Below, piece by piece: positions 13,204 through 39,606 of a DNA stretch of 64,000 nt. The stretch spans positions 8,060,001 through 8,124,000 of the forward strand of contig NZ_CP042997.1 of assembly GCF_008087625.1 (NCBI RefSeq). Direction: 5' to 3'. Numbering within the stretch: position 1 is the first letter of the stretch; each line of letters starts with the position of its first letter. Origin of the DNA: Aquisphaera giovannonii (GTDB taxonomy: Bacteria > Planctomycetota > Planctomycetia > Isosphaerales > Isosphaeraceae). The notes below the pieces were generated by a model, which was not told the origin of the DNA, made no database searches, and worked only from the letters and a program-made list of their open reading frames with translations. The position numbers were made by a program, and so were the translations under genes.

Positions 13204-15165
13204 TCAACGGTCGCCGTGCTCGGCGCCGAGGGCGACGCCGCCGGAGGACTTCTGCGAGGCGAGCTTGTCGAGCTGGCGCTCCACCTCGGAGGCGGTCCGC
13301 AGGCTGCGGTTGACCACCTTGCCCTGGGCGTCGATCAGGAACATCGTCGGCAGCGAGATGATGCCGTACTCGGTCGCGAGCCGGCTGTCGATGCCGCCCG
13401 GCTCGAAGACCTGGGGCCAGGTCATCTGCTGCTCCTTGAGGAACGCCTCGAGGTCGGCCTTCTCGTTGTCCAGGCTGACCCCGACGATGGCCAGGCCCTT
13501 GGCCTGCGGCTTCTCCAGGAGCTTCACGAGGTCCGGGAGCTCGCGGCGGACCGACTGGCCGCCCCAGGACGCCCAGAAGACCACGAGCACCGGCTTGCCC
13601 TGGTACTGCGCCGTGTCCAGCGTCTCGCCCTTGAGGGTCGTCCCCTTGATCGAGAGCGGCTTGCCGACCAGGTCGAGCCGCCTGAGCGCTCCGGCGGCCT
13701 TCTTCCCGGAGGGCGTGTCGGGGTAGCCCTCCACGAGCTTGGTGTAGTCCTGGCGCGCCTTGTCCTCCTCGGCGTTGAACTCGTTGGAGCTGCCGAGCTG
13801 GAGCAGGACCTCGGCCGCCTCCTCCGACTTGCCGAACTTCGTCAGGAAGGCCTCCAGGTCGGCCATCCACTTCTTCTGGTTGGCCATGAAGTTGGAGCCG
13901 GGCTCCTCGTTCCGCATCACGAAGTCGGCCCCGATGAGCCGGTAGGCCGCGTAGGGGGAGATCCGGGTCCCCCCCTCGACCATGCCCTCGAGCACCTGGC
14001 GGGCCTTGGGATAGGCGCCGGTCTGGTAGGCCGCGATGAGGCTGTCCACGATCTGCTTGTTGTAGTTGAGCTGGTCCTCGGGCTCCTTGGCGACCTTGAC
14101 GATGGCGCCCAGGAGCGGGATGCGGCCGTAGTGGAACCGGGCGACGTCCTTCTTCTCGCCCTGCTGGAGCGGCGCGTTGCCGCTGTCGTAGTCCGCCAGG
14201 GCCTTGAGGGCCTTCTCCATCGCCTCGTCGCGCTGCGGGCCGGGCCCGGCGGTGTCGAAGATGGCGGCGCGGATGCCGCCCGCCGAGGCGACGACCGGCT
14301 TGTCCGGATCCACGGCGCGGGGCAGCTCGACGAACTTCCAGGCGTCGCCGAGCTTTATCATCTCCGGCACCTGGAGGAACGAGACCTTCGCCCCGGGCGC
14401 GGCCGCGCCGGCGGCGGCGGGCGCGCCCGCGAAGACCACGGCGTTCTCGTAGAGGACGAGGTCCTCCCTGACGCCCGTCGCGGGGTCGGCCGGGATCACG
14501 TGGGGGTAGGTGCCGTCGAACCGATTCCAGACGGTCTTGGGGGTCCAGCCGGCGAGGCCCTGGAGCAGCGCCTCGACGGCGTCGGCCCGCCTGGCGGCGC
14601 CGGCGGTGACCTTGTCGACGACCTCCTTCGGCAGGCCGGCCTCGGCCAGCTCGGCCGGCGAGGCCATCAGCGACTCGAGCAGGGCCTGGTCGCGGGTGGC
14701 CAGCGCCTGGACGAGGACCTTGGAGGCCTCCTCCGCGGAGATCCGCTTCCAGCCGGCGATCTTGCCGCCCTTGATCGCGCCGACGCGGGTCCCGCCGGCA
14801 TTCAGCCAGCGGCACTCGTCGGGGGAGCGGTCGCCGTCCAGGTCATTCTCGCGATAGACCTCGAAGCCGTCCTGGTAGTAGCTCCACTGGTTCAGGCTCT
14901 TGCCGCCGTTGGTGATCACGAACCGGCGGAGCAGCTTGCCCTGGCCGTCGCGGAGGGCGTAGCCCACGGTCCGCTTCTGCCCGTCGGTGACCATCTCCAC
15001 CTTGCAGGCGTCGATCGCCGCCTGGTCCGCGGGGACGTCGTAATCGACGCCCGGCTGGGTGGGGCGGAACTTCAGCAGGTCCTTGGGCCCGTAAGCCGCG
15101 TGGCACCAGGGCGTCACGCCGACCAGCAACCCCAGGACGGCCACGGAACACCGCAGACTCCTCAT
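13204..15165 (-). CDS. Secreted TlpA-like thioredoxin-fold protein lacking CXXC
   Basis: 653 residues. The start at 15165 is set by AAGGAG 7 bases upstream and a signal peptide (MRSLRCSVAVLGLLVGVTPWCHAA). The central part (about 25-480) is a planctomycete-type helical region with no named domain. The C-terminal ~150 residues are a TlpA/AhpC-type thioredoxin fold: GKPVLVVFWASW, then IVGVSLDNEKADLEAFL, then GIISLPTMFLIDAQGKVV. Where TlpA has WCxxC, this protein reads W534-G-G-Q-S538 (13552-13566), so both redox cysteines are absent although the cis-Pro motif (SLPTMF) is kept. A binding or scaffold role at the envelope is inferred rather than disulfide exchange. Confidence 0.85.
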   Translation of the reverse strand: MRSLRCSVAVLGLLVGVTPWCHAAYGPKDLLKFRPTQPGVDYDVPADQAAIDACKVEMVTDGQKRTVGYALRDGQGKLLRRFVITNGGKSLNQWSYYQDGFEVYRENDLDGDRSPDECRWLNAGGTRVGAIKGGKIAGWKRISAEEASKVLVQALATRDQALLESLMASPAELAEAGLPKEVVDKVTAGAARRADAVEALLQGLAGWTPKTVWNRFDGTYPHVIPADPATGVREDLVLYENAVVFAGAPAAAGAAAPGAKVSFLQVPEMIKLGDAWKFVELPRAVDPDKPVVASAGGIRAAIFDTAGPGPQRDEAMEKALKALADYDSGNAPLQQGEKKDVARFHYGRIPLLGAIVKVAKEPEDQLNYNKQIVDSLIAAYQTGAYPKARQVLEGMVEGGTRISPYAAYRLIGADFVMRNEEPGSNFMANQKKWMADLEAFLTKFGKSEEAAEVLLQLGSSNEFNAEEDKARQDYTKLVEGYPDTPSGKKAAGALRRLDLVGKPLSIKGTTLKGETLDTAQYQGKPVLVVFWASWGGQSVRRELPDLVKLLEKPQAKGLAIVGVSLDNEKADLEAFLKEQQMTWPQVFEPGGIDSRLATEYGIISLPTMFLIDAQGKVVNRSLRTASEVERQLDKLASQKSSGGVALGAEHGDR

Positions 15166-15495
15166 GAGCCTCTCCTTAATGGCCGGCAACCGCGGGGCCC
15201 GGGGGACATTCCCTCGAGGGAGCCATCCGTCCCCGCCCCGGCCCGCGTGCCCGGCAGAACGAGCGCAATCGGCACCGACGATGCCATCTTCATCGGCAAT
15301 CCGGCCGCTCCGCTGGAGTCGGCGGGGCCGGACTTTCGCATTGTCCGGGCCAAGTTGACCCCGAATCGCCCGGCGCGTCCAGGCGAGTTCCGGCCTTGCG
15401 GACGGGGGTAAGATGGATGTCTTGGCGCGTCGAAGCGAGGTGGGCGAGGCGGGCAAGTCGCCCGCGCCTCGGTCGGGGCGCGGGCGATGGCGGGA
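15166..15495. other. 330-bp intergenic region between two minus-strand genes
   Basis: No gene supported. It holds the 5' region of the TlpA-like gene and, at its right end, the terminator-like hairpin at 15459-15486. A GACAAT-like -10 for the TlpA-like gene can be found on the minus strand, but its -35 is poor. Confidence 0.4.
15459..15486 (-). terminator. Hairpin after the PspA/TPM/AAA cluster
   Basis: A perfect 10-bp stem, CGCCCGCGCC (15459-15468) with GGCGCGGGCG (15477-15486), and an 8-base loop. It starts 10 bases beyond the stop of the 100-residue protein, the last gene of the cluster. No T-run follows, so it may be a Rho-type or 3'-stabilising structure. Confidence 0.5.
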
Positions 15496-15798
15496 TCAGC
15501 CGCGGAAGGTGGTCTTGGGCCGGGCCGCGGCGATCTCGTGCAGCGTGTGCATGATGTTGTACGCGGTGAGCTCGCAGAGCAGCCTGGTCACGTCGCCGTG
15601 GAGCTTCTCGCTCAGCTCGGGCTCGACCTTCCTCATCAGCTCGACGAGCCGCTCCTCCTGGGCCTTCAGCTCGTGGGCCTCGATCTTGCCGTCGGCCATG
15701 GCGTCCATGAACCCGGTGAGGCGCGAGGCGTAGTCGTTGATCAGCGGGGCGTCGGTCCCCTCGTCGAACCAGTTCTGCTTCCCGTGATTCTTGCTCAT
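15496..15798 (-). CDS. Unknown 100-residue protein, last gene of the PspA/TPM/AAA cluster
   Basis: A soluble, charged, all-helical 100-residue protein starting MSKNHGKQNWFDEGTDAPLI. It reads as two or three helices (ASRLTGFMDAMADGKI; HELKAQEERLVELMRKVEP; LLCELTAYNIMHTLHEIA). No signal peptide, membrane segment or catalytic motif. GAAGGGCGG precedes the ATG. It lies 58 bases after the AAA ATPase gene on the same strand, so it is probably co-transcribed with it. I do not recognise the family; an adaptor or regulator of the ATPase is a guess from position only. Confidence 0.75.
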   Translation of the reverse strand: MSKNHGKQNWFDEGTDAPLINDYASRLTGFMDAMADGKIEAHELKAQEERLVELMRKVEPELSEKLHGDVTRLLCELTAYNIMHTLHEIAAARPKTTFRG

Positions 15799-15856
15799 CG
15801 TTCCGCCCTTCGATGGGAGTGAATGTCCGGGTCGCCCCGGGTGGATTCCTCGGATG

Positions 15857-17692
15857 TCAATCCTCGATCAGACGCTTGATCTCGGCGACCCGCTCCTGGA
15901 GCCTCGCCCGCTCGTCGGGCCTCTTGAGGCGCTCGCGCCAGTCCCCCGGCAGGTAGGACATCGAGGTGCATTCCAGGACCGCCGCCAGCTCCTGCTTCTC
16001 CTTCTCCAGCCCCTGCGCGGAGGGGACGAACTCCTCGACGGCCGCCTTCAGGTCCTCGCCGGTGATCTCCTCGCGGTTGGCGATCAGGGCCCCGCGCTTG
16101 GCGATGAGGACGATGCTCTCGATGTCCGCGCCGCTGAGGCCCCGGGACGCGAGGCCCCCGGGCAGGAGGTCCGGATTGATGGGGGCCCGGTTCTTCCTCC
16201 CCATCACCTTGAACATGTAGCGGACCTCCTCCTCGTCCCGGGGGTTGAACAGGGGGAGGTGGACCTCCGCGCGGCCCTGCCGCTTGAGGTCGATCGGGAG
16301 CAGGTCGGGGCGGCTGGTGAGGAGCATCCAGATCAGCTTGCCGCGATAGCGGGTGTCCCCCATCTGGCTCGCGATCATCGAGAAGACGCGGCCGGAGGTG
16401 CCGGAGTCGCCGCCCGACTCCCGGTTCCCGAGCGCCGCGTCGGCCTCGTCGATGACGACGACCACGGGCCCCATGGCGCGGAGGACGCCCAGGAGCTGCT
16501 CGAGGTTGCCCTCGGTCTCGCCGACGTACTTAGAGCGGAAGTTCTTGAGCTTCACGCAGGGGACGCCCACGGAGCCGGCGAAGCACTCGGCCAGGTAGGT
16601 CTTGCCGGTGCCGACGGGGCCGCAGATCAGGTAGCCCATGGCCGTCGCGTCCAGCCGGCCCTTGGCCAGGAGCGACGCGTCGTCCACGAGCCTTTGCCGC
16701 ACGCCGTCGTTGCCGACGAAGTCGTCCAGGGTGTGGGGCGGCTCGACGAACTCCACCAGCCCGCGGGCCTGCCGCTCGATGAGCCCCTTCTTGAGGGCTT
16801 TCAGGCTGCCGGCGTCCAGCCTCGCGCCGGACTTCTCGGCCCGGGCGAGGAGCCGCTCCAGGCTCACGAGGCTCAGGCCGCTGGTCAGCTCGGCGAGCTG
16901 GTCGGGGGTGAAGTCGGTGAGGTTGCCGAGGCGGCCGTCGCGGTTGTCGAACCAGGTCGCGAAGCCCTTCCGGGCCGCCGCGTCCGGCATCGGGACCTCG
17001 ATCGTCGCGACCTGCGGGCTGCCCACGAGCCGCTCGTTGAGCTCGCTGAGGCGGTCGCAGAGCATGCAGATCGCGATGTTGCTCCGCTTGATGTAGGGGC
17101 TCTGCGCCCAGGAGAGGAACCGGACCAGCCGGGTCCCCTGCGAGCCGGCGAGCTGCGAGAGGTCCGTCGTCGGCATGAGGAACTGGGCGTGGTCGAAGAT
17201 CACGGCCACGTTCACCCGCCGCGCCGGGTCGTCCTCCAGGATGTTCTTCTGGAAGAGCTGGTCGAGCAGCGCGAGGATGGCGTCGGGGTCCTTGGGCCAG
17301 AGCTTCGGCTCGCCGATCCGCTCGGAGACCGGGCCGAACATCTTGCGGAGCCGCTCGCGGTCGGTCCCGGCGGCCATCCGGAGGCCGTAGCTGAGGTCGT
17401 GGATCAGGACGATGTCCCAGCTCCCGAAGAGCTGGGTCGCCAGGAAGTCGGGGACCGAGCCGTACGCCCCCGGCGTGCCGTCGTCCTGCTTGACGACGTC
17501 GTTGACGTTACCGTGGAGCACGAAGACGCACGTCGTGCCCGCGAAGTACTGCTGGGCGAACTCCCTGGCCCAGCCGGGGTACCACTTGGGCACCAGGTCG
17601 TCGTAGGCCGGTACCGCCGGCGGGCTGCCCGGCGGGGGCGTCGGGGTCGAGGCCGGGGCGGCCTGATCGGGCGGGGTAGTCCCCTTGACCAC
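15857..17692 (-). CDS. AAA+ ATPase (Ycf46/CDC48-like), PspA-cluster
   Basis: 611 residues from a GTG at 17692, with GGAG 8 bases upstream. A Pro-rich start is followed by an N-terminal half (about 30-290) that looks like a degenerate AAA module without Walker A ([45 protein letters not shown]). The C-terminal half is a full AAA domain: GPVGTGKT (358-365), VVVIDEAD with Asp415-Glu416, the pore-loop-like segment [13 protein letters not shown], and sensor/arginine-finger regions ([17 protein letters not shown]). This degenerate-plus-active layout recalls Ycf46-type ATPases. It probably forms a ring that remodels a protein or membrane complex. It sits between pspA (123 bases upstream) and the 100-residue protein. 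Confidence 0.88.
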
Positions 17693-17815
17693 GGTTCGGA
17701 CTCCGGATGTTGGGGCCGGGGGCGGGAAGGCGTTGCGTCCGGGCGAGGGGCCGCGGGCAGGGTCGGCGCGGCCGCCCCGCGCCGGGCCTCCCCGGCGCCG
17801 GGCGCCGCCCCGCGG

Positions 17816-18565
17816 TCAGATCTCGGGCAGGGGCTCGAGCTGCTTCGTCCCCGGGCCGAGCTGCTTCGTGGACTGGGCGGAGGCCGGCGTGGCCAGGCCC
17901 ATCTCCTTCTCGAACTCCTTGAGCGCGTCCTCGCCCATCGTCTTCTCGACGGCGATCTCCCGCTTCACGTCCTCCACGCCCTGCCCGGAGAGGTCGGCCG
18001 CCACGCGGACCTTGGCGCGGTTCTTGTCGATCTGGCTCTGGATGATGTCCTCGGCCTGGCCGAAGTCGGTCGTCACGTCGAAGTTGAACTGGTTGGCGAG
18101 CTGCGACATCTCGGCCTCGGCGCGGCTCATCTTGAGGTCGGCGTCGTACTTGGTGATCTTGTGCTTGACGTCCTCGAGCTTCTCCACCGCGTGCTTGATC
18201 TTCAGCAGGTTGTTGTTGTACGCCTGCTCGTGGAGGCCGAGCTGCCGCTCGTTCTCGGCGGCGTCCTCCCTGGCACGCTTGAGGTCGAGCGCGAGCTTGG
18301 CGGCGGTCTCGCGGTCCCCCGCGGAGAGGTAGGCCTTGATCTTGGCCTCGAGCGTCGAGACGACCTTGCGCTGGCCCTCCACCTGGCGGGTCACGCGTTC
18401 CACGAGCGCGCGGTACTGCGCCAGCCCCTCGCGGCCCTCGCGGAGCTGATCGACGGAGCGGTCGTATTCGTACTGCATCTGGGCGATCGGGTCATACCCG
18501 CTGAACATATTCGCCAGCTTGTTGAACTGGGCCGCGATGGCCTTCCAGAGCTTGCCGAGGATCAT
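17816..18565 (-). CDS. pspA: PspA/IM30 (ESCRT-III-like) family protein
   Basis: 249 residues of heptad-rich helix, the normal PspA/IM30 length. It opens with an amphipathic helix (MILGKLWKAIAAQFNKLANM) that would bind stressed membranes, then YDPIAQMQYEYDRSVDQLREG and a long coiled coil with LEAKIKAYLSAGDRETAAKLAL. A short flexible tail with repeated TKQLxPG(x) follows. PspA proteins polymerise on damaged inner membranes and limit proton leak. AGGTG precedes the ATG. It lies 99 bases after the TPM-protein gene and 123 before the AAA ATPase gene, on the same strand, so the three probably act together. Confidence 0.92.
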   Translation of the reverse strand: MILGKLWKAIAAQFNKLANMFSGYDPIAQMQYEYDRSVDQLREGREGLAQYRALVERVTRQVEGQRKVVSTLEAKIKAYLSAGDRETAAKLALDLKRAREDAAENERQLGLHEQAYNNNLLKIKHAVEKLEDVKHKITKYDADLKMSRAEAEMSQLANQFNFDVTTDFGQAEDIIQSQIDKNRAKVRVAADLSGQGVEDVKREIAVEKTMGEDALKEFEKEMGLATPASAQSTKQLGPGTKQLEPLPEI

Positions 18566-18664
18566 GATTCACCTGTGCCCCACGCTGTGAGTGGTTCCCG
18601 ACGACGCTGTTATGGTAGTGAAGACCCGACGCAATTTCCACGAGGCCCCCGGGGGCCGCGACGC

Positions 18665-21574
18665 CTACCACCCCGCCCCCGCGCTCCCGGTGGACCAGGA
18701 GGCTCCCGCGCTCCCCGCGTCCGGGTCCGGCGCGGGGGACTCGGTGGCCATCGCGGCCCGGGGCGGGCCGGGTGCCGCGGGGACGTCCCCGGCCCGGAAG
18801 ATCTGCGGCCCGACGGCCGGGACGCCGACGCGCCCGGCCCGGGCCCCCTGCATGGCGAGCTCGCGCAGGTAGGCCTGCTGGGCCGCGTCCGCGTACGCCT
18901 GGCGGACCTGCTGGATGGCGGCGGCGGCGACGCGGATCGCCTGCTCGTAGTCCTGCGATTGGTAGAGCTGCTGGGCCTGGCCGACCTGCCCCTCCGCGCC
19001 CGCCGTCCCCATCGTCACGCCCATGGAGAAGTAGCCCCGCGACTTGCGGATCATGCGGCCGGCCTCGCCGATCTCCCGCTCCGCCTGGCGGGCCAGGCGG
19101 ATGTCCTCCTGCGCCAGCCGTTCGGAATAGGCGAGGTCCTGGGCCGCCCCCCGGACCAGCTCCAGGCAGCGCACCCACTCCCCGTTCGAGCCCCCGGCCT
19201 CCGCCGCGCGGAGCGCGGCTTCCGCGTTCCGGTGGTGCTGATTGGCGGCCAACCGGTCCTCCTCGTGCCCCGCCAGGAACGCCCCGACGCGGCTCGCCTC
19301 GCGGCGGACCCGGTCCAGCTCGTCGGCCAGCCGCTCGTAGGCCCGCACGTCGGCCTCCGCCTGGTTCCGCGCGGCCGCGAACTCGTCGAGGGCGCGGGCC
19401 AGCACCTGGCGGGCCGCCGGCCAATCCGGGCGTCCGTCGCGCATGAGGCCCACGGCCTGCTTCCGCGATTCCTGTGCCGAGGCGAACGTCCCCCGCGCCA
19501 CCGACCCGATCGCCCGGTCGTTCTGGCGGAAGAAGCCGTCCGTCCCGTGCTCCAGGTCGTCGAGGGCGCGGGCCGCGTCCTGGCTCTCCGCGCGGACGGC
19601 CTTGAGGGCATTGAGCTGGTCGGCGACGCCGGACATGAGCCGGAAGACGGCGCGCTGCTCGTCGGCCAACTGGCCCAGGAGGCGGGAGCCCAGGAGGTAT
19701 TTCTGCGCCGCGGGCGTGGCCGCCGCCGCGGCCTCATCCGCCTTGGCGTCGAACGTCTCCAGCAGCTTGGACGCCTGGGCCAGGTTCCCCGAGACCGCCT
19801 GCCACGAGCCCGGGGAGAACTCGCGTTTCAGCTCGTCCTGGAAGGCCGCATACTGGCCCATCGCCTCGCGCAGGCGGCGGGTCTCGCGGGCCCGCTCGGG
19901 CAGGTCCTTCTCGCAGGACTCTCGGGCCTTGAGGACGGAGTCGAGGGTCCGCCTGGCCTCGTCGAGCGACTCGTGGGCGGCCCGCAGCTGCGCCTGGGCC
20001 GCCTCCGGGTCGCCGTCGTGGACGGCCCGCCGCAGCCCCTCCAGGGCCTCGAACGTCCGGGCGATCGGGTGGTCCGGGTCGCCGCCGTCCTCGTCGAGAC
20101 GGAGGCCGTCCTTGCGGTGGCGGCCCACCTCCTGGCCCAGGGATTTGAGGCTCTCGGCGACCTTGCGGCCGTCCGCGAAGCCGTCGAGGATACGCTGGAT
20201 CCGGTCCCGGAGCGACGCGGCCCGCTGGCGGGCCGCCCCCAGCGACCGGCGGGCCCCGATCGGGTCCGGGACGAGGATCTTGCCGGCCTTCTCGGCCTCC
20301 CCCGCGATCCCCTCGACCTCCGGCCTGTAGGGGAGCGTCGGCAGGCCCTCCTTGTCCACCTCGCCCACGCGGCCGTCGATCTCCTTGCGAATTGCGGCCA
20401 CGGCATCCGCGTCGGCCCGGGCGTCCTCGTGCGACCGATTGAGGACGTCCATGCTGGCCGCGCAGGCCTTGGCCTCCTCGTCGATCGTCTCGAAGGCCTT
20501 CGAGTCCGAGACGAGCTGCTCGGCCTCCTTGAGCTTCTGCGTGCCGAGTGCCGAGTCCTTCTTCGCCAGCTCCTGGGCCTTGTCGAGGACGTCCATCACC
20601 TCCAGCCAGCGGTCCCAGAGCCCGGTCAGGTGCTTCTGCGTCTCCTCGTAGAAGGCCAGCGTCTCGCCGCCCATCGGCTCCTTGAAGTCGGGATCCTCGA
20701 TGGGGAGCTGCTTGAGCCTCGCCTTGAGGGCGTCCAGCCGGTCCATCACGTCCACGGCCTTCTTCTTGTAGTCCTTGATCTTGGACTCCACGGTGTTCCG
20801 GGTCCGCCGCCGGCCCAGCCAGATGAGGCCCGCCATGATGAGCCCGACGGCGACCAGGGAGGCCACCAGCGCCATCACCGCCTGGCCGGTCGTCTCACGC
20901 GGCGTGGCCGCCGGGGCGGGGGCCGCGGCGACCGCCCGCGTCGCCGGCCGGGATTCCGCCGATGGCGCCGGCGGGGCGGTGGCGGCGACCGCCGGGAGCT
21001 GGGCGTCTCCGGTCGGGACACGCGCCGTGGCCGGGTCGTTCGCCGCGATCGCGTTGTTCATGGCGGCGAGCAGGGCGCCGATCGCATCGGGGTAACGCTG
21101 CTCCCGCGCCAGCGGCACGAAGTGCCGCTCGATCAGCGAGACGCGGGCGGCCCGGTCCATGCCGGGACGATCCCGCAGCTCGCTCCCGGCGGCGACCTCC
21201 ACCCGGTGGTCGTCGACCGCCACGAGGGTGATGATCGACCGCGCGGCGTCCAGCTTCAGGCCCTTCGCCTTCGCCTGCTCCCGCCAGGCTCTTTCGAGGT
21301 CGGCCACGTAACGGCCGGCGGACGCCGCGTCGCCGCCGGCGGACCGCACGACGACGACGAAGTAGGTCTGCGGGGAGGTCCGCTCCAGCTCCTCGATCGC
21401 CCGCCGCACGCCCGAGAAGTCGCCCGGGACCTCCGCGACGTAGAGCCGATCGCCGGTGTACGCCGGGATGGGCGACTTCTCCGCCGCCCGGGCGACGACC
21501 GCCGCGGCCATCGCCGCGACGACGACGGCTCCCCGCCACAGGACCCGCCGAATCACCGCTGAATCGGACACCAT
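18665..21574 (-). CDS. TPM-domain membrane protein with long coiled coil (YgcG-like)
   Basis: 969 residues. The start at 21574 gives a signal peptide (residues 1-31, ending VVARA). A TPM domain fills about 38-180 (VPGDFSGVRRAIEELE; TYFVVVVRSAGGD; LVAVDDHRVEVAAGSEL; FVPLAREQRYPDAIGALLAAM). An Ala/Pro linker and one TM helix (231-254) come next, with RRR after it as stop-transfer. About 670 residues of cytoplasmic coiled coil end in a Gly/Ser/Trp tail (AGASWSTGSAGAGW), like the GGxSGSW tails of YgcG proteins. It is first in a same-strand series with pspA and the AAA ATPase. A possible minus-strand -10 (TATCAT) is at 21762-21757. Confidence 0.85.
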   Translation of the reverse strand: MVSDSAVIRRVLWRGAVVVAAMAAAVVARAAEKSPIPAYTGDRLYVAEVPGDFSGVRRAIEELERTSPQTYFVVVVRSAGGDAASAGRYVADLERAWREQAKAKGLKLDAARSIITLVAVDDHRVEVAAGSELRDRPGMDRAARVSLIERHFVPLAREQRYPDAIGALLAAMNNAIAANDPATARVPTGDAQLPAVAATAPPAPSAESRPATRAVAAAPAPAATPRETTGQAVMALVASLVAVGLIMAGLIWLGRRRTRNTVESKIKDYKKKAVDVMDRLDALKARLKQLPIEDPDFKEPMGGETLAFYEETQKHLTGLWDRWLEVMDVLDKAQELAKKDSALGTQKLKEAEQLVSDSKAFETIDEEAKACAASMDVLNRSHEDARADADAVAAIRKEIDGRVGEVDKEGLPTLPYRPEVEGIAGEAEKAGKILVPDPIGARRSLGAARQRAASLRDRIQRILDGFADGRKVAESLKSLGQEVGRHRKDGLRLDEDGGDPDHPIARTFEALEGLRRAVHDGDPEAAQAQLRAAHESLDEARRTLDSVLKARESCEKDLPERARETRRLREAMGQYAAFQDELKREFSPGSWQAVSGNLAQASKLLETFDAKADEAAAAATPAAQKYLLGSRLLGQLADEQRAVFRLMSGVADQLNALKAVRAESQDAARALDDLEHGTDGFFRQNDRAIGSVARGTFASAQESRKQAVGLMRDGRPDWPAARQVLARALDEFAAARNQAEADVRAYERLADELDRVRREASRVGAFLAGHEEDRLAANQHHRNAEAALRAAEAGGSNGEWVRCLELVRGAAQDLAYSERLAQEDIRLARQAEREIGEAGRMIRKSRGYFSMGVTMGTAGAEGQVGQAQQLYQSQDYEQAIRVAAAAIQQVRQAYADAAQQAYLRELAMQGARAGRVGVPAVGPQIFRAGDVPAAPGPPRAAMATESPAPDPDAGSAGASWSTGSAGAGW

Positions 21575-21842: not shown

Positions 21843-21921
21843 GTGGGAAATTCCGTAGAACAGAGGTCTTCGATGCGTCGCCTCGGAATCAGTAGCCTTC
21901 TGTTCACGGAGGGTCCCCGTC

Positions 21922-22152
21922 ATGTCCTTCGAGCATCTGCCCGAGCGGCAGGCCCGCCTCGCCCAGGATCTCTACGAGGAGCTCCGGGCGGCCTCGGACG
22001 CGGACATCCGGGCCATGGCCGAGCTGCTGGCCACCAAGCCCGACGACGAGCTCTTCGGCGAGGCCGAGTTCCAGCTCCGCGACATGGTCCATCGGGTCGG
22101 CGCCAAGGCCCTCCAGGCCGCTGCCATGCAGCGGAAAAAAGGGGGTATGTAG
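21922..22152 (+). CDS. ISKra4-type transposase, upstream frame (orfA)
   Basis: 76 codons from an ATG preceded by GGAGGG 8 bases upstream, beginning MSFEHLPERQARLAQDLYEE. It encodes the helical N-terminus of the transposase (LRAASDADIRAMAELLATKP; MVHRVGAKALQAAAMQ) and stops at TAG 22150-22152, just after an A6G5 run. The rest of the transposase is in the -1 frame. On its own this product would lack the zinc-binding and catalytic parts. Confidence 0.75.
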   Translation: MSFEHLPERQARLAQDLYEELRAASDADIRAMAELLATKPDDELFGEAEFQLRDMVHRVGAKALQAAAMQRKKGGM

Positions 22153-23324
22153 GGTCCAGCACGAGCTGCCCCCGCTGCTCCGAGGCCGCCCGCTTCAAGG
22201 GCTATCGGCCCAAGGGGCTGGTCTCGGCCCTGGGCCCGCTGCGCATCGAGCGCGGCTACTACCACTGCCCGCGATGCCGCGAGGGCCACTGCCCCGCCGA
22301 CGCCGCCTTCGGCCTCGACGGCGGCGACCTGACCTCCGGCGCCGCCGAGCTGGCCTGCCTGGCGGCGGCCCGGGAGAGCTTCGCCAAGGCCGCCGATGTC
22401 GCCCTGCCGCGGATGTGCGGCCTGGACCTCGCCGAGTCCACCGTGGAGCGGGTCGCCGAGGCCGTCGGCGCCGAGGTGGGCCGGGCCATCGAGTCCAAGG
22501 TCCCCTTCGACGAGGCGGGCCCCTGGGCCTGGCACGTGGACGCCGAGGGGATGACCTGCGCCTACGTGTCGATCGACCTGACGGGCGTCCGCAGGCAGGG
22601 GCCCGAGGGGGCCGCGGCCGAGGGGGAGATGATCGCCGTGGGCATGGTCTACAACCCCATCCCCGAGGGCCGCGAGCGATGGGCGACCCAGGGCCGGCGC
22701 CGGCCCCCCCGGCAGGCGAGGTACGTCGCCAGCGCCGAGGGCCAGGAGGCGGTGGCCGAGCCGCTGCGACACATGGCCGCCCGGGCGGGCATGGGCGAGG
22801 CCCGGCGCTGGATCGCGGTGTGCGACGGCGGGTCGGGGCTGGAGGACCTGCTGAGGCGGCACTTCGGGCGGATCGACGCGGTGATCCTGGACTTCTACCA
22901 CGCCAGCGAGCACCTGGGGGACCTGGCCAAGGCCTGGCACGCCGACGAGGCCCAGGCGGAGGCGGCGCACGCGGCGTGGTCGCATCGGCTGAAGCACGAG
23001 GGGGGCGCCGCGATGCTGGCCTGGCTGGAGGGCCTGGACGTCGCGGCCGCCCCGCGGGCGCGGGCGACGTGGGAGGCGACGGTGAACTACTTCCGCAACC
23101 AGCACCACCGGATGGACTACCCGGCCTACCTGGCCAAGGGGTGGCAGATCGGCTCGGGCCCGATGGAGGCCGGCTGCAAGCTGGTGATCAACGAGCGGCT
23201 CAACGGCACCGGGATGCGCTGGGGCCATCAGGGGGCCGACGCCATGGCCCACCTCCGGGCCCTCTACCTCAGCGAGTCCGCCCTCTGGACCGGCTTCTGG
23301 GCCAACCGCCGGAAGGCAGCTTGA
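21922..23324 (+). CDS. ISKra4 family transposase, full product needing a -1 frameshift
   Basis: Joining orfA to the -1 frame at the A6G5 run (22135-22145) gives a protein of about 467 residues. The second frame carries a double zinc-knuckle (CPRCSEAARFKGY and YYHCPRCREGHCP), then GLDGGDLTSGAAELACLAAA, the acidic catalytic region (WHVDAEGM; AVCDGGSGLEDLL; AVILDFYHASEHL) and the C-terminal GSGPMEAGCKLVINERL plus GMRWGHQGADAM, all typical of ISKra4 transposases. No disabling mutation other than the frame change was seen, so the element may be active. An alternative is an accidental frameshift that has inactivated it. Confidence 0.8.
22135..22145 (+). promoter_or_regulatory. A6G5 slippery run linking the two transposase frames
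   Basis: Six A followed by five G, in the orfA frame read AAA AAA GGG GGT ATG TAG. The downstream frame is -1 relative to orfA. The site could work through ribosomal -1 slippage or polymerase slippage on the homopolymer. The classical A_AAA_AAG phase is not met exactly, because the base before the first AAA is G. Confidence 0.5.
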
Positions 23325-37602: not shown

Positions 37603-39606
37603 TCAGAGCGGCGGGTTGTCGGCCGTGGCCACGACCGGGTCGTCGTGGGCGCGGGAGACGGCGGGCTCGTCGTCGAGCCCGGCCCGCTTGCCGATCAGGT
37701 TGGTGATCTCCGACTCGGTCAGCACCTCGCGCTCGATCAGGGCCTCGGTGAGCCGCTCCATCTCGTCGCGGTGCGACTCGAGGAGCCGGAAGGCGTGCTC
37801 GTCGGCCTCGCGGAGGATCCGCCCGACCTCCTCGTCGATGATCTGCTGCATGTGCTCGGAGTGGTCGCGGGGCTCGGACATCTCGCGCCCCAGGAACGGG
37901 TGCTCGGACGAGGTCCGGAACGAGACCGGTCCGACGCGCTCGCTCATGCCCCACTGGGTGACCATCTTCCGGACCAGCCGCGTCGCCTGGTCCAGGTCCT
38001 GGGCGGCGCCGGTGCTCAGGTCGTCGTAGATCAGTCGCTCGGCGGCGCGGCCGCCCATCATCATGTACAGCTTGGCCTTGATCTGGCTCTCGTTGTAGCT
38101 GACCCGGTCCTCCTCCGGCATGAACTGGGTCACGCCCAGGGAGCGGCCGCGGGGGATGATGGTGACCTTGTGGACGGGGTCGGACCGGGGCGTCAGCCAG
38201 CCGACGAGGGCGTGGCCGACCTCGTGGTAGGCCGTCGCGCGCTTGTCCTTGTCGGTGATGACCTCCTCGCGCTTGGCGCCCAGGATCACCTTGTCCAGGG
38301 CCGCCTCCAGGTCGGCCGCGTCCACCGCCTGCTTGTCCTCGCGCGTGGCCAGGAGGGCGGCCTCGTTGACGAGGTTGGCCAGGTCCGCCCCGCTCATGCC
38401 GACGGTGTTCCGCGCGATCCGGTCCAGGTCCACGTCGGAGGACAGGGGCACGCTGCGGGTGTGGACCTTGAGGATCTCCAGCCGGCCCTTCTTGGTGGGC
38501 AGGTCCACCGTGACGTGGCGGTCGAAGCGGCCGGGGCGGAGCAGCGCGGGGTCGAGCACGTCCGGCCGATTCGTGGCCGCCAGGACGATGACGCTCTCGC
38601 TCGGCGAGAAGCCGTCCATCTCCGTGAGGATCTGGTTGAGGGTCTGCTCGCGCTCGTCATGCCCGCCGCCGAGCCCGGCCCCGCGGATCCGGCCGACGGC
38701 GTCGATCTCGTCGATGAAGAGGATGCACGGGCTGTTCTCCCGGGCCGTCTTGAACATGTCGCGGACCCGGCTGGCGCCCACGCCCACGAACATCTGGATG
38801 AACTCGGAGCCGGAGATCGAATAGAACGGCACCCCCGCCTCGCCGGCGACCGCGCGGCCCAGCAGGGTCTTGCCGGTGCCCGGCGGGCCGATCAGCAGGA
38901 CCCCCTTGGGGATCCGGCCGCCCAGCTTCTGGAACTTCTCCGGGCTCTTGAGGAACTCGACGATCTCCTGCAGCTCGCCCTTGGCGTTCTCCAGCCCGGC
39001 GACCTCCTCGAAAGTCGTCCGCTGCTTGGACTTGTCGTGCCGCTTCGCGGAGCTCTTCACGAAGGTGCCGAGGATCCCGCCGTCGAACTGGTCGCGGGCC
39101 CTCCGCATCATCAGGTAGAAGATGCCCAGGATCAGGAACGTCGGCAGCAGGAGCATGATCCAGACGAGCCCGTTGGCGCCGTTGATCGGGCTCCCCTCGA
39201 TCGCCACGGGGTCCTTGCCGTCCTTGCCGAAGCCCCGCAGCCTGTTCACGGTCGCGTCCAGCGCCTGGTCCGTCGGCGCATAGGTCAGGAACCGGTTCAC
39301 CTTGACGCTGCTGGTGGACGAGCCGCTCGGCAGGTACGGCGTCTCGGCCCGCAACTCGCCGCGGATCTCGTTGGCCTGGATGGTGATCCGCTTGATGTTG
39401 TTGGCTTCGACCTGGTCCAGGAACCACGGATTATAATCGACCGTGGTCTCGGGCTTCGGCACCCAGAAGATGAAGATGATCGCGAAGGCACCGATGAGGA
39501 GGAGCCAGAGCCAGGGGGGGGTCGGTGACCCCCCGGCGTTGTTGGGCTTTCGTCCATTGGCAAGGGGCCGGCGCGGGGGATCCTGCTGCGGCGGTCGATT
39601 CTCCAT
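37603..39606 (-). CDS. ftsH: ATP-dependent zinc metalloprotease FtsH
   Basis: 667 residues. A Pro/Asn-rich cytoplasmic start ([20 protein letters not shown]) leads to TM1 ([19 protein letters not shown]), a periplasmic domain and TM2 ([20 protein letters not shown]). The AAA domain follows: GPPGTGKT at about 240, [10 protein letters not shown], and the second region of homology ([20 protein letters not shown]). The zinc site is HEVGH (461-465) with the third ligand in the ADEHAF-preceding helix region ([12 protein letters not shown]). It degrades misfolded membrane proteins and short-lived regulators. The promoter is probably 39736-39708 on the minus strand. Confidence 0.97.

Follow-up and report, generated by a model that had tools for sequence, protein, structure and literature searches.

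The stretch of DNA analysed here, referred to as the window, comprises 64,000 nucleotides of the Aquisphaera giovannonii genome (8,060,001-8,124,000 within the 10.37 Mb contig NZ_CP042997.1) and carries four minus-strand genes in series, which encode a membrane protein with a TPM domain, a PspA/IM30-family protein, an ATPase with two AAA-like modules and a small helical protein. The main finding concerns the second and third of these: most PspA proteins accompanied by the double-AAA ATPase share a short motif in their C-terminal tails, and this motif tracks the ATPase better than the other partners. The arrangement of the genes had been described in a sequence-only reading of the window, and the open reading frame coordinates confirm both the order and the spacers of 99, 123 and 58 bases between TPM, PspA, AAA and small-protein genes. 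The features are as follows.

18665-21574, minus strand: TPM protein, 969 residues (open reading frame and Pfam)
17816-18565, minus strand: PspA/IM30-family protein, 249 residues, of the subfamily that accompanies the double-AAA protein (open reading frame and Pfam)
17852-17866, minus strand: motif KQLGP, PspA residues 234-238, the proposed ATPase handle (sequence conservation)
15857-17692, minus strand: double-AAA ATPase, 611 residues, GTG start (open reading frame, Pfam and fold)
16766-17581, minus strand: first AAA-like module of the ATPase, residues ~38-309, with a conserved FVLHGNVxD-type segment (fold)
16598-16621, minus strand: Walker A sequence GPVGTGKT of the second module, residues 358-365 (sequence)
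15496-15798, minus strand: small protein, 100 residues, of an orphan family (open reading frame and predicted structure)
15458-15487, minus strand: GC-rich hairpin 3' of the small-protein gene (folding), its role as a terminator being unconfirmed

The order and spacing of the genes suggest that they are co-transcribed. No sigma-70-like promoter was found where one was looked for at the cluster, and the hairpin, which the earlier reading had called stable, does fold at its position but lacks a T tract, gave a negative result in terminator scoring and folds only 1.67 standard deviations better than shuffled sequences. Antisense open reading frames, such as that at 15791-21562 on the plus strand, were considered spurious.

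The PspA protein belongs to the PspA_IM30 family (PF04012; residues 1-160, 38.8 bits against a cut-off of 33.9), and other PspAs assemble into rods or rings and remodel membranes (PMC11746142). For the ATPase, the Pfam AAA model recognizes one module only (residues 355-479, 86.5 bits against a cut-off of 21.2), whereas the predicted structure (mean predicted local distance difference test score, pLDDT, of 85.1) contains two AAA-like modules, at residues ~38-309 and 310-611, preceded by a segment of low confidence (residues 1-28, pLDDT below 50). The first module is AAA-folded and has no P-loop. The second keeps DEAD, RQGR and the glycines and lysine of its Walker A sequence in each of 37 aligned sequences (37 of 37), and the degenerate-plus-active arrangement proposed from the sequence was therefore right. 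The sequence KYVGETE at residue 388 is pore-loop-like and presumably occupies the position of the substrate-gripping pore loops of classical AAA proteins. Both modules align with Rix7, NVL and p97 in Foldseek and VIA comparisons, and with Pex1/Pex6 in VIA; Rix7 (7swl) was aligned across the two modules together in one chain (Foldseek 4.4e-19; VIA Z 21.8 over 460 residues, root-mean-square deviation 5.0). By its predicted structure, the protein is a Cdc48/Rix7/Pex-like double-AAA protein, and it resembles an AAA motor that pulls on its substrates. As in Cdc48/p97, Rix7/NVL and Pex1/Pex6, tandem AAA modules fill nearly the whole chain; unlike these proteins, it is bacterial and PspA-linked, and no p97-type N domain was seen. 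One ring is catalytically poor in Pex1/Pex6 as well. The NCBIfam CDC48 model gives 63.3 bits, well below its cut-off of 802.65, and does not claim the protein. Its closest named relative, 91% identical, is found in Aquisphaera insulae.

Membership of the Vps4 family was considered and rejected. The second module does have an active classical AAA core, and Vps4 chains align with it (VIA Z 20.3-21.0), tied with p97 D2, FtsH, spastin and fidgetin-like proteins. However, the fold comprises two modules, no MIT domain was matched at E≤0.1 among 37 scanned ATPase members, and Vps4_C is absent from the 22 families listed in the domain scan of ATPase members. Vps4 also falls outside the 60 best PDB sequence matches, whether a single protein or a profile was used, which proves little because double-AAA chains are favoured by summed stretches.

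Systems of this kind have been described by Ravi et al. in 2024 (PMC11237479), who report PspA beside a two-AAA+ protein with an inactive N-terminal copy and liken the pair to Snf7/Vps4; they also describe longer operons with an ABC ATPase, a permease and a PBPB/OmpA protein, count TPM proteins with long coiled coils among the partners of PspA and suggest that membranes are remodelled in an ATP-dependent way. The present locus, in which PspA lies next to a double-AAA protein whose first module is inactive, is one such system, and the proposal made from the window sequence that the AAA protein acts on PspA is an independent rediscovery of the published association and of its Vps4 analogy. In the available text of Ravi et al., the supplement aside, we found no TPM-PspA-AAA-small gene order, no small-protein family, no co-inheritance counts and no tail motif; likewise, no available passage of the literature on PspA and AAA proteins, supplements aside, was found to link a tail motif to an AAA protein.

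Presence and absence of the genes agree closely in related genomes. Among the 45 genomes of the window's family, for which nearly all AAA candidates were scored, the AAA gene is present in 19; PspA accompanies it in all 19 and is found in 2 of the 26 genomes without it (Fisher 9e-11), and TPM is found in all 19 and in 1 of the 26 (G296). The two AAA-less genomes with PspA are G296 (63% identical) and G302 (33%). Of 20 loci fetched from 18 of the family genomes, several of them truncated by a contig end, 16 have PspA as the immediate upstream neighbour of AAA, 14 have the small gene immediately downstream, and 12 carry all four genes on one strand. G297 retains all four, although AAA and TPM are on separate contigs and PspA shares a third contig with the small gene. 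A search of 297 genomes of the class, with the best few candidates per genome scored, found 65 AAA-bearing genomes; leaving out 17 of a distant type (28-31% identity), a close AAA protein (E≤1e-100) is present in 48, and PspA accompanies it in 48 of 48 versus 5 of 249 (Fisher 4e-50, kinship ignored). In a draw from the phylum, again with the best few candidates scored, 71 of 294 genomes had a match at 1e-20, generic AAA proteins included; PspA is on the AAA strand in 37 of the 56 better-match loci that were followed and directly upstream in 22. Some fetched loci, such as L065, L126 and L105, fall outside the BLAST AAA cluster but contain the AAA protein by profile.

The best 80 AAA relatives from a scan of named genome contigs extend this picture to Planctomycetota (46 loci), Myxococcota (15), Acidobacteriota (6), Gemmatimonadota (5) and Hydrogenedentota (3); Pseudomonadota, Elusimicrobiota and Rhodothermota contribute one locus each, and two loci are unplaced. 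Of these named loci, 60 of 80 have PspA on the AAA strand and 39 have it no more than 1 kb upstream; the small gene follows directly downstream in 46, and 6 contain a TPM gene. What stays constant is thus the pairing of ATPase and PspA, and TPM is a partner seen in the window's family. Adjacency of the four genes is conserved beyond this strain, as the earlier reading requires, and the shared presence and absence together with the conserved order inside the family support the view that the four genes behave as one inherited unit. A special tie to planctomycete compartments, which that reading had also suggested, is unlikely, because the same PspA-AAA pair occurs in Myxococcota, Acidobacteriota, Gemmatimonadota and others. 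In many AAA-PspA loci the operon is longer and includes transporter genes, for an ABC ATPase, a permease and an NMT1-type binding protein with an OmpA fusion, together with a gene for a coiled-coil protein of the membrane. The coiled-coil protein has ~290-320 residues with N-terminal hydrophobic stretches (L059:2974-3843, L030:2681-3598, L134:3695-4654); two members scanned against Pfam matched no family, and it may correspond to what Ravi et al. call a 'Snf7 homologue with a TM segment'.

The tails of AAA-adjacent PspAs vary in length and sequence but have in common K-x-[LMI]-G, in most cases with P as the next residue: the window PspA has KQLGP, and KELGP, KDLGP, KTIGP, KSMGP or KDMGP occur in other loci. 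The C-terminus of the window PspA, KQLEPLPEI, resembles the motif once more. The tails of nine PspAs of a distant subtype (L103-L111) end in LPE or IPEA, and the window tail itself ends in PLPEI. For counting, the subfamily set of 184 PspAs was reduced to 149 distinct sequences by removal of duplicates, frames broken by a contig end were excluded, and 36 weaker, mostly canonical PspAs (33 without duplicates) were kept apart; tail bounds were set by alignment, regular-expression matches within the last PspA helix (L317, L177) were discarded, and an AAA match anywhere in the fetched stretch counted as the same locus. The motif is present in 111 of the 124 PspAs that share a locus with AAA, whereas 300 shuffles of the tails gave a mean of 2.7 and a maximum of 9; K is found in 108 of the 111, and P follows G in 82 of these 108. 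It also occurs in 21 of 23 PspAs whose AAA protein is encoded outside the fetched stretch (13 of 14 and 8 of 9), a figure from which the three Aquisphaera PspA2 copies are kept separate. Nine Myxococcota and Rhodothermota genomes had no PspA in the fetched AAA surroundings; the PspA of eight carries the motif, three of the nine PspAs lying on the same contig and strand, 7-9.5 kb upstream of AAA, and six on another contig. Among the 33 weaker PspAs, it is found in the tail of 2 and in the last 35 residues of 4. The motif had been defined from the first loci, and it recurred in later ones. It is present in 58 of 59 subsequent named loci (53 of 53 without duplicates of earlier loci, from at least six phyla); the single miss, L213, has a sequence already met before. 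All 26 AAA-linked PspAs from the class-level search (26 of 26) have it too, although the organisms partly overlap and duplicate removal leaves 17 new sequences.

Genomes that have PspA and lack the ATPase differ in this respect. The motif is present in 3 of 8 AAA-less genomes and in none of the four good assemblies, being missing in G296, G394, G511 and G532 (93-98% complete) and in G102 (79%). When the AAA protein was searched for again in these eight genomes with all candidates scored, only generic AAA relatives were found (best 3.4e-20, 25-34% identical). Within the set of 149 PspAs, the frequency is 124 of 138 in AAA-bearing versus 3 of 8 in AAA-less cases (Fisher 0.001, kinship ignored). 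G296 keeps PspA, the small protein and TPM, and G511 keeps PspA and the small protein, both in the absence of AAA and motif.

A second PspA of the same genome (PspA2; C1 6,965,151-6,965,828) is 55% identical to the window PspA and belongs to an operon (C1 6,959,694-6,965,828; L134:3695-9829) that encodes an OmpA-fused NMT1-type binding protein, a permease, an ABC ATPase and a coiled-coil membrane protein. The relatives G294 and G295 also carry a second PspA, with neighbours as at PspA2. This operon has no AAA gene, whereas the same type of operon includes one in many other loci, and the motif is found in none of the three PspA2 copies of the genus Aquisphaera; PspA2 is therefore a natural control for the link between motif and AAA protein. 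Because the small protein, TPM and the ABC/OmpA operon, the last retained by the motif-less PspA2 copies, persist where AAA and motif are gone, the AAA protein is likely to be the simplest reader of the tail motif.

The interpretation that we favour, with modest confidence, is that PspA forms an ESCRT-III-like polymer in bacteria, that it is served by a dedicated ATPase which grips its tail, and that the TPM coiled-coil protein anchors it here. PspA would polymerize on the inner membrane and be held there by the TPM protein; a hexamer of the ATPase would grip the PspA tail through the K-x-[LMI]-G motif and extract subunits in an ATP-driven manner, so that the coat would be remodelled or recycled, and the small helical protein might bind PspA and tune its assembly or its hand-over. 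PspA2, with its ATPase-less operon and motif-less tail, would then form a static coat. The sequence-only reading had placed the AAA protein in an ESCRT-III/Vps4-like circuit acting on PspA; co-inheritance and the tail motif agree with the circuit, whereas the ATPase itself stands outside the Vps4 family. As in ESCRT-III/Vps4, including archaeal CdvB/CdvC, a protein of the ESCRT-III superfamily is paired with an AAA ATPase and may be recognized through a short C-terminal motif; the differences are that two AAA modules are present here, that neither MIT nor Vps4_C was found in the scans above, and that the candidate motif is K-x-[LMI]-G(P), unlike the MIM helix that is recognized in ESCRT-III. 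A bolder generalization, which we advance tentatively and consider slightly more doubtful than probable, is that many bacteria possess a complete two-part ESCRT-III/ATPase machine in which the K-x-[LMI]-G(P) tail motif of a PspA subfamily serves as the handle for disassembly by a dedicated Cdc48-like motor with two AAA modules that arose independently of Vps4 and of MIT-MIM recognition, and that is docked by TPM in Aquisphaera and its family. As the double-AAA partner is widespread and the candidate motif is short and mutable, the proposal can be tested at the bench with peptide, ATPase and polymer.

Several points weigh against the tail-gripping ATPase. The direct contact between ATPase and PspA is one that we infer, the operon structure of the four genes derives from their order and spacing, and the motif was originally derived from the same kind of sequences as those in which it was counted. 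In 7 of the 80 named loci, 6 kb or more of sequence upstream of AAA contains no PspA. The motif is absent from 13 of the 124 AAA-near PspAs: nine are members of the distant subtype (with LPE or IPEA ends), two have KxLEP and two have neither. G297 has AAA and a PspA without a clean motif (ending in QKSLQ), which counts against strict dependence, and G575, the ninth of the Myxococcota and Rhodothermota genomes above, bears AAA and reads KTAGQ in place of the motif. Conversely, the motif is present in three AAA-less genomes, G302 (98% complete, 10% contaminated) and G131 and G187 (81-82% complete). In a tree of 112 of the 149 PspAs, the independent pairs (two for, none against and four neutral) were too few events for significance.

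The same evidence can be read in other ways. PspA may be the regulator and the ATPase the effector, with the tail motif recruiting or restraining the AAA protein at the membrane while the ATPase acts elsewhere, on the ABC/OmpA transporter, a membrane complex or the TPM protein. PspA of E. coli inhibits or adapts the AAA+ protein PspF, which provides a precedent; moreover, many AAA-PspA loci hold transporter genes and the coiled-coil protein, in 22 of the 80 named loci the coiled-coil gene is the immediate upstream neighbour of AAA, and the motif evidence is compatible with binding in both directions. However, AAA accompanies PspA even where no transporter genes adjoin, as in the window, and no substrate other than PspA that is common to all loci is visible. 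We regard this explanation as unlikely, yet as one to be taken seriously. Much less credible is the view that the genes merely travel together by block transfer or loss and that the motif serves another function of PspA. Adjacent genes are indeed gained and lost jointly, and the tree-corrected test is not significant, but the PspA-AAA pair is retained across phyla, G297 retains all four genes on three contigs, six Myxococcota and Rhodothermota genomes keep PspA and AAA on separate contigs (which may still be linked where assemblies are fragmented), and the four good AAA-less genomes lack the motif. At least as improbable, in our judgement, is that the complex is a chaperone for the assembly of membrane protein complexes in which PspA is a scaffold and not a substrate, a role that Ravi et al. 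read for TPM, band-7 and CesT partners in the available text; it would leave unexplained why a conserved motif in the PspA tail accompanies the ATPase.

The membrane side of the proposed machine is provided by the TPM protein. Its TPM domain (PF04536, residues 56-173, window 21056-21409) scores 23.8 bits against a cut-off of 22.1, and hydrophobic stretches lie at its N-terminus (~10-30) and at ~228-255, the latter transmembrane. These stretches suggest that the membrane separates the domain, which would be outside, from the ~710 remaining residues, which would be inside. The part assigned to the cytoplasm is mostly charged and appears helical from its sequence, and the C-terminal tail is rich in Gly and Ser and ends in W. 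A membrane TPM protein with a long cytoplasmic coiled coil, as first proposed, therefore agrees with the Pfam domain and the two hydrophobic stretches, its sidedness being deduced from them. Membership of EzrA (PF06160) was rejected for residues 269-674 (26.5 bits, below the cut-off of 39.6), which show a coiled-coil likeness only. In Bacillus, YdjH, which bears a TPM domain (PMC11237479), binds PspA in a bacterial two-hybrid assay and is required for PspA membrane foci (PMC8581546), and by analogy it is plausible that the TPM protein serves as the membrane anchor for PspA. The pspA-ydjGHI operon of Bacillus subtilis likewise combines a PspA gene with that of a TPM-domain membrane protein; in contrast to the present cluster, the operon as described in the available text (pspA, ydjG, ydjH, ydjI) has no AAA gene, and YdjI is an SPFH protein (PMC8581546). 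A shorter frame of 394 residues in the same genome (C1 9,117,263-9,117,988) matches the TPM protein over residues 217-459 with 36% identity, and frames similar to it are present in eight relatives.

The small protein is predicted to form four helices (residues 20-25, 28-36, 41-61 and 64-92; mean pLDDT 81.6). A Pfam scan of 42 members gave no convincing family, the matches being IcmW (0.0029, 4 members), GvpG (0.0058, 8 members) and single matches down to 0.0013; NCBIfam returned IcmW at an unconvincing 0.0022, and no convincing relative was found in the PDB. It had been proposed as an adaptor of the AAA protein, which is doubtful: its gene adjoins PspA in G296, G297 and G511, where the AAA gene is lost or on another contig. 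Because it is retained beside PspA after AAA loss, a role in binding PspA suits the gene neighbourhoods better than that of an ATPase adaptor. A link between a C-terminal FRG or FQG of the small protein and AAA, suggested by its loss in G296 and G297, was dropped, as G511 keeps FQG without AAA and several AAA-linked members are without it.

Around the cluster, a divergent open reading frame with CxxC pairs lies upstream of the TPM gene (21843-23324, plus strand), and we take it to resemble a transposase; a Pfam scan of the frame at 21984-23321 (plus strand) at 1e-5 gave no match. Downstream on the same strand, and outside the conserved unit, a neighbour at 13207-15144 (minus strand) has an AhpC/TSA thioredoxin-like domain at its end. 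A further AAA protein, from a 669-residue open frame, is seen in the window at 38272-38910 (minus strand), with 29% identity to the second module of the ATPase.

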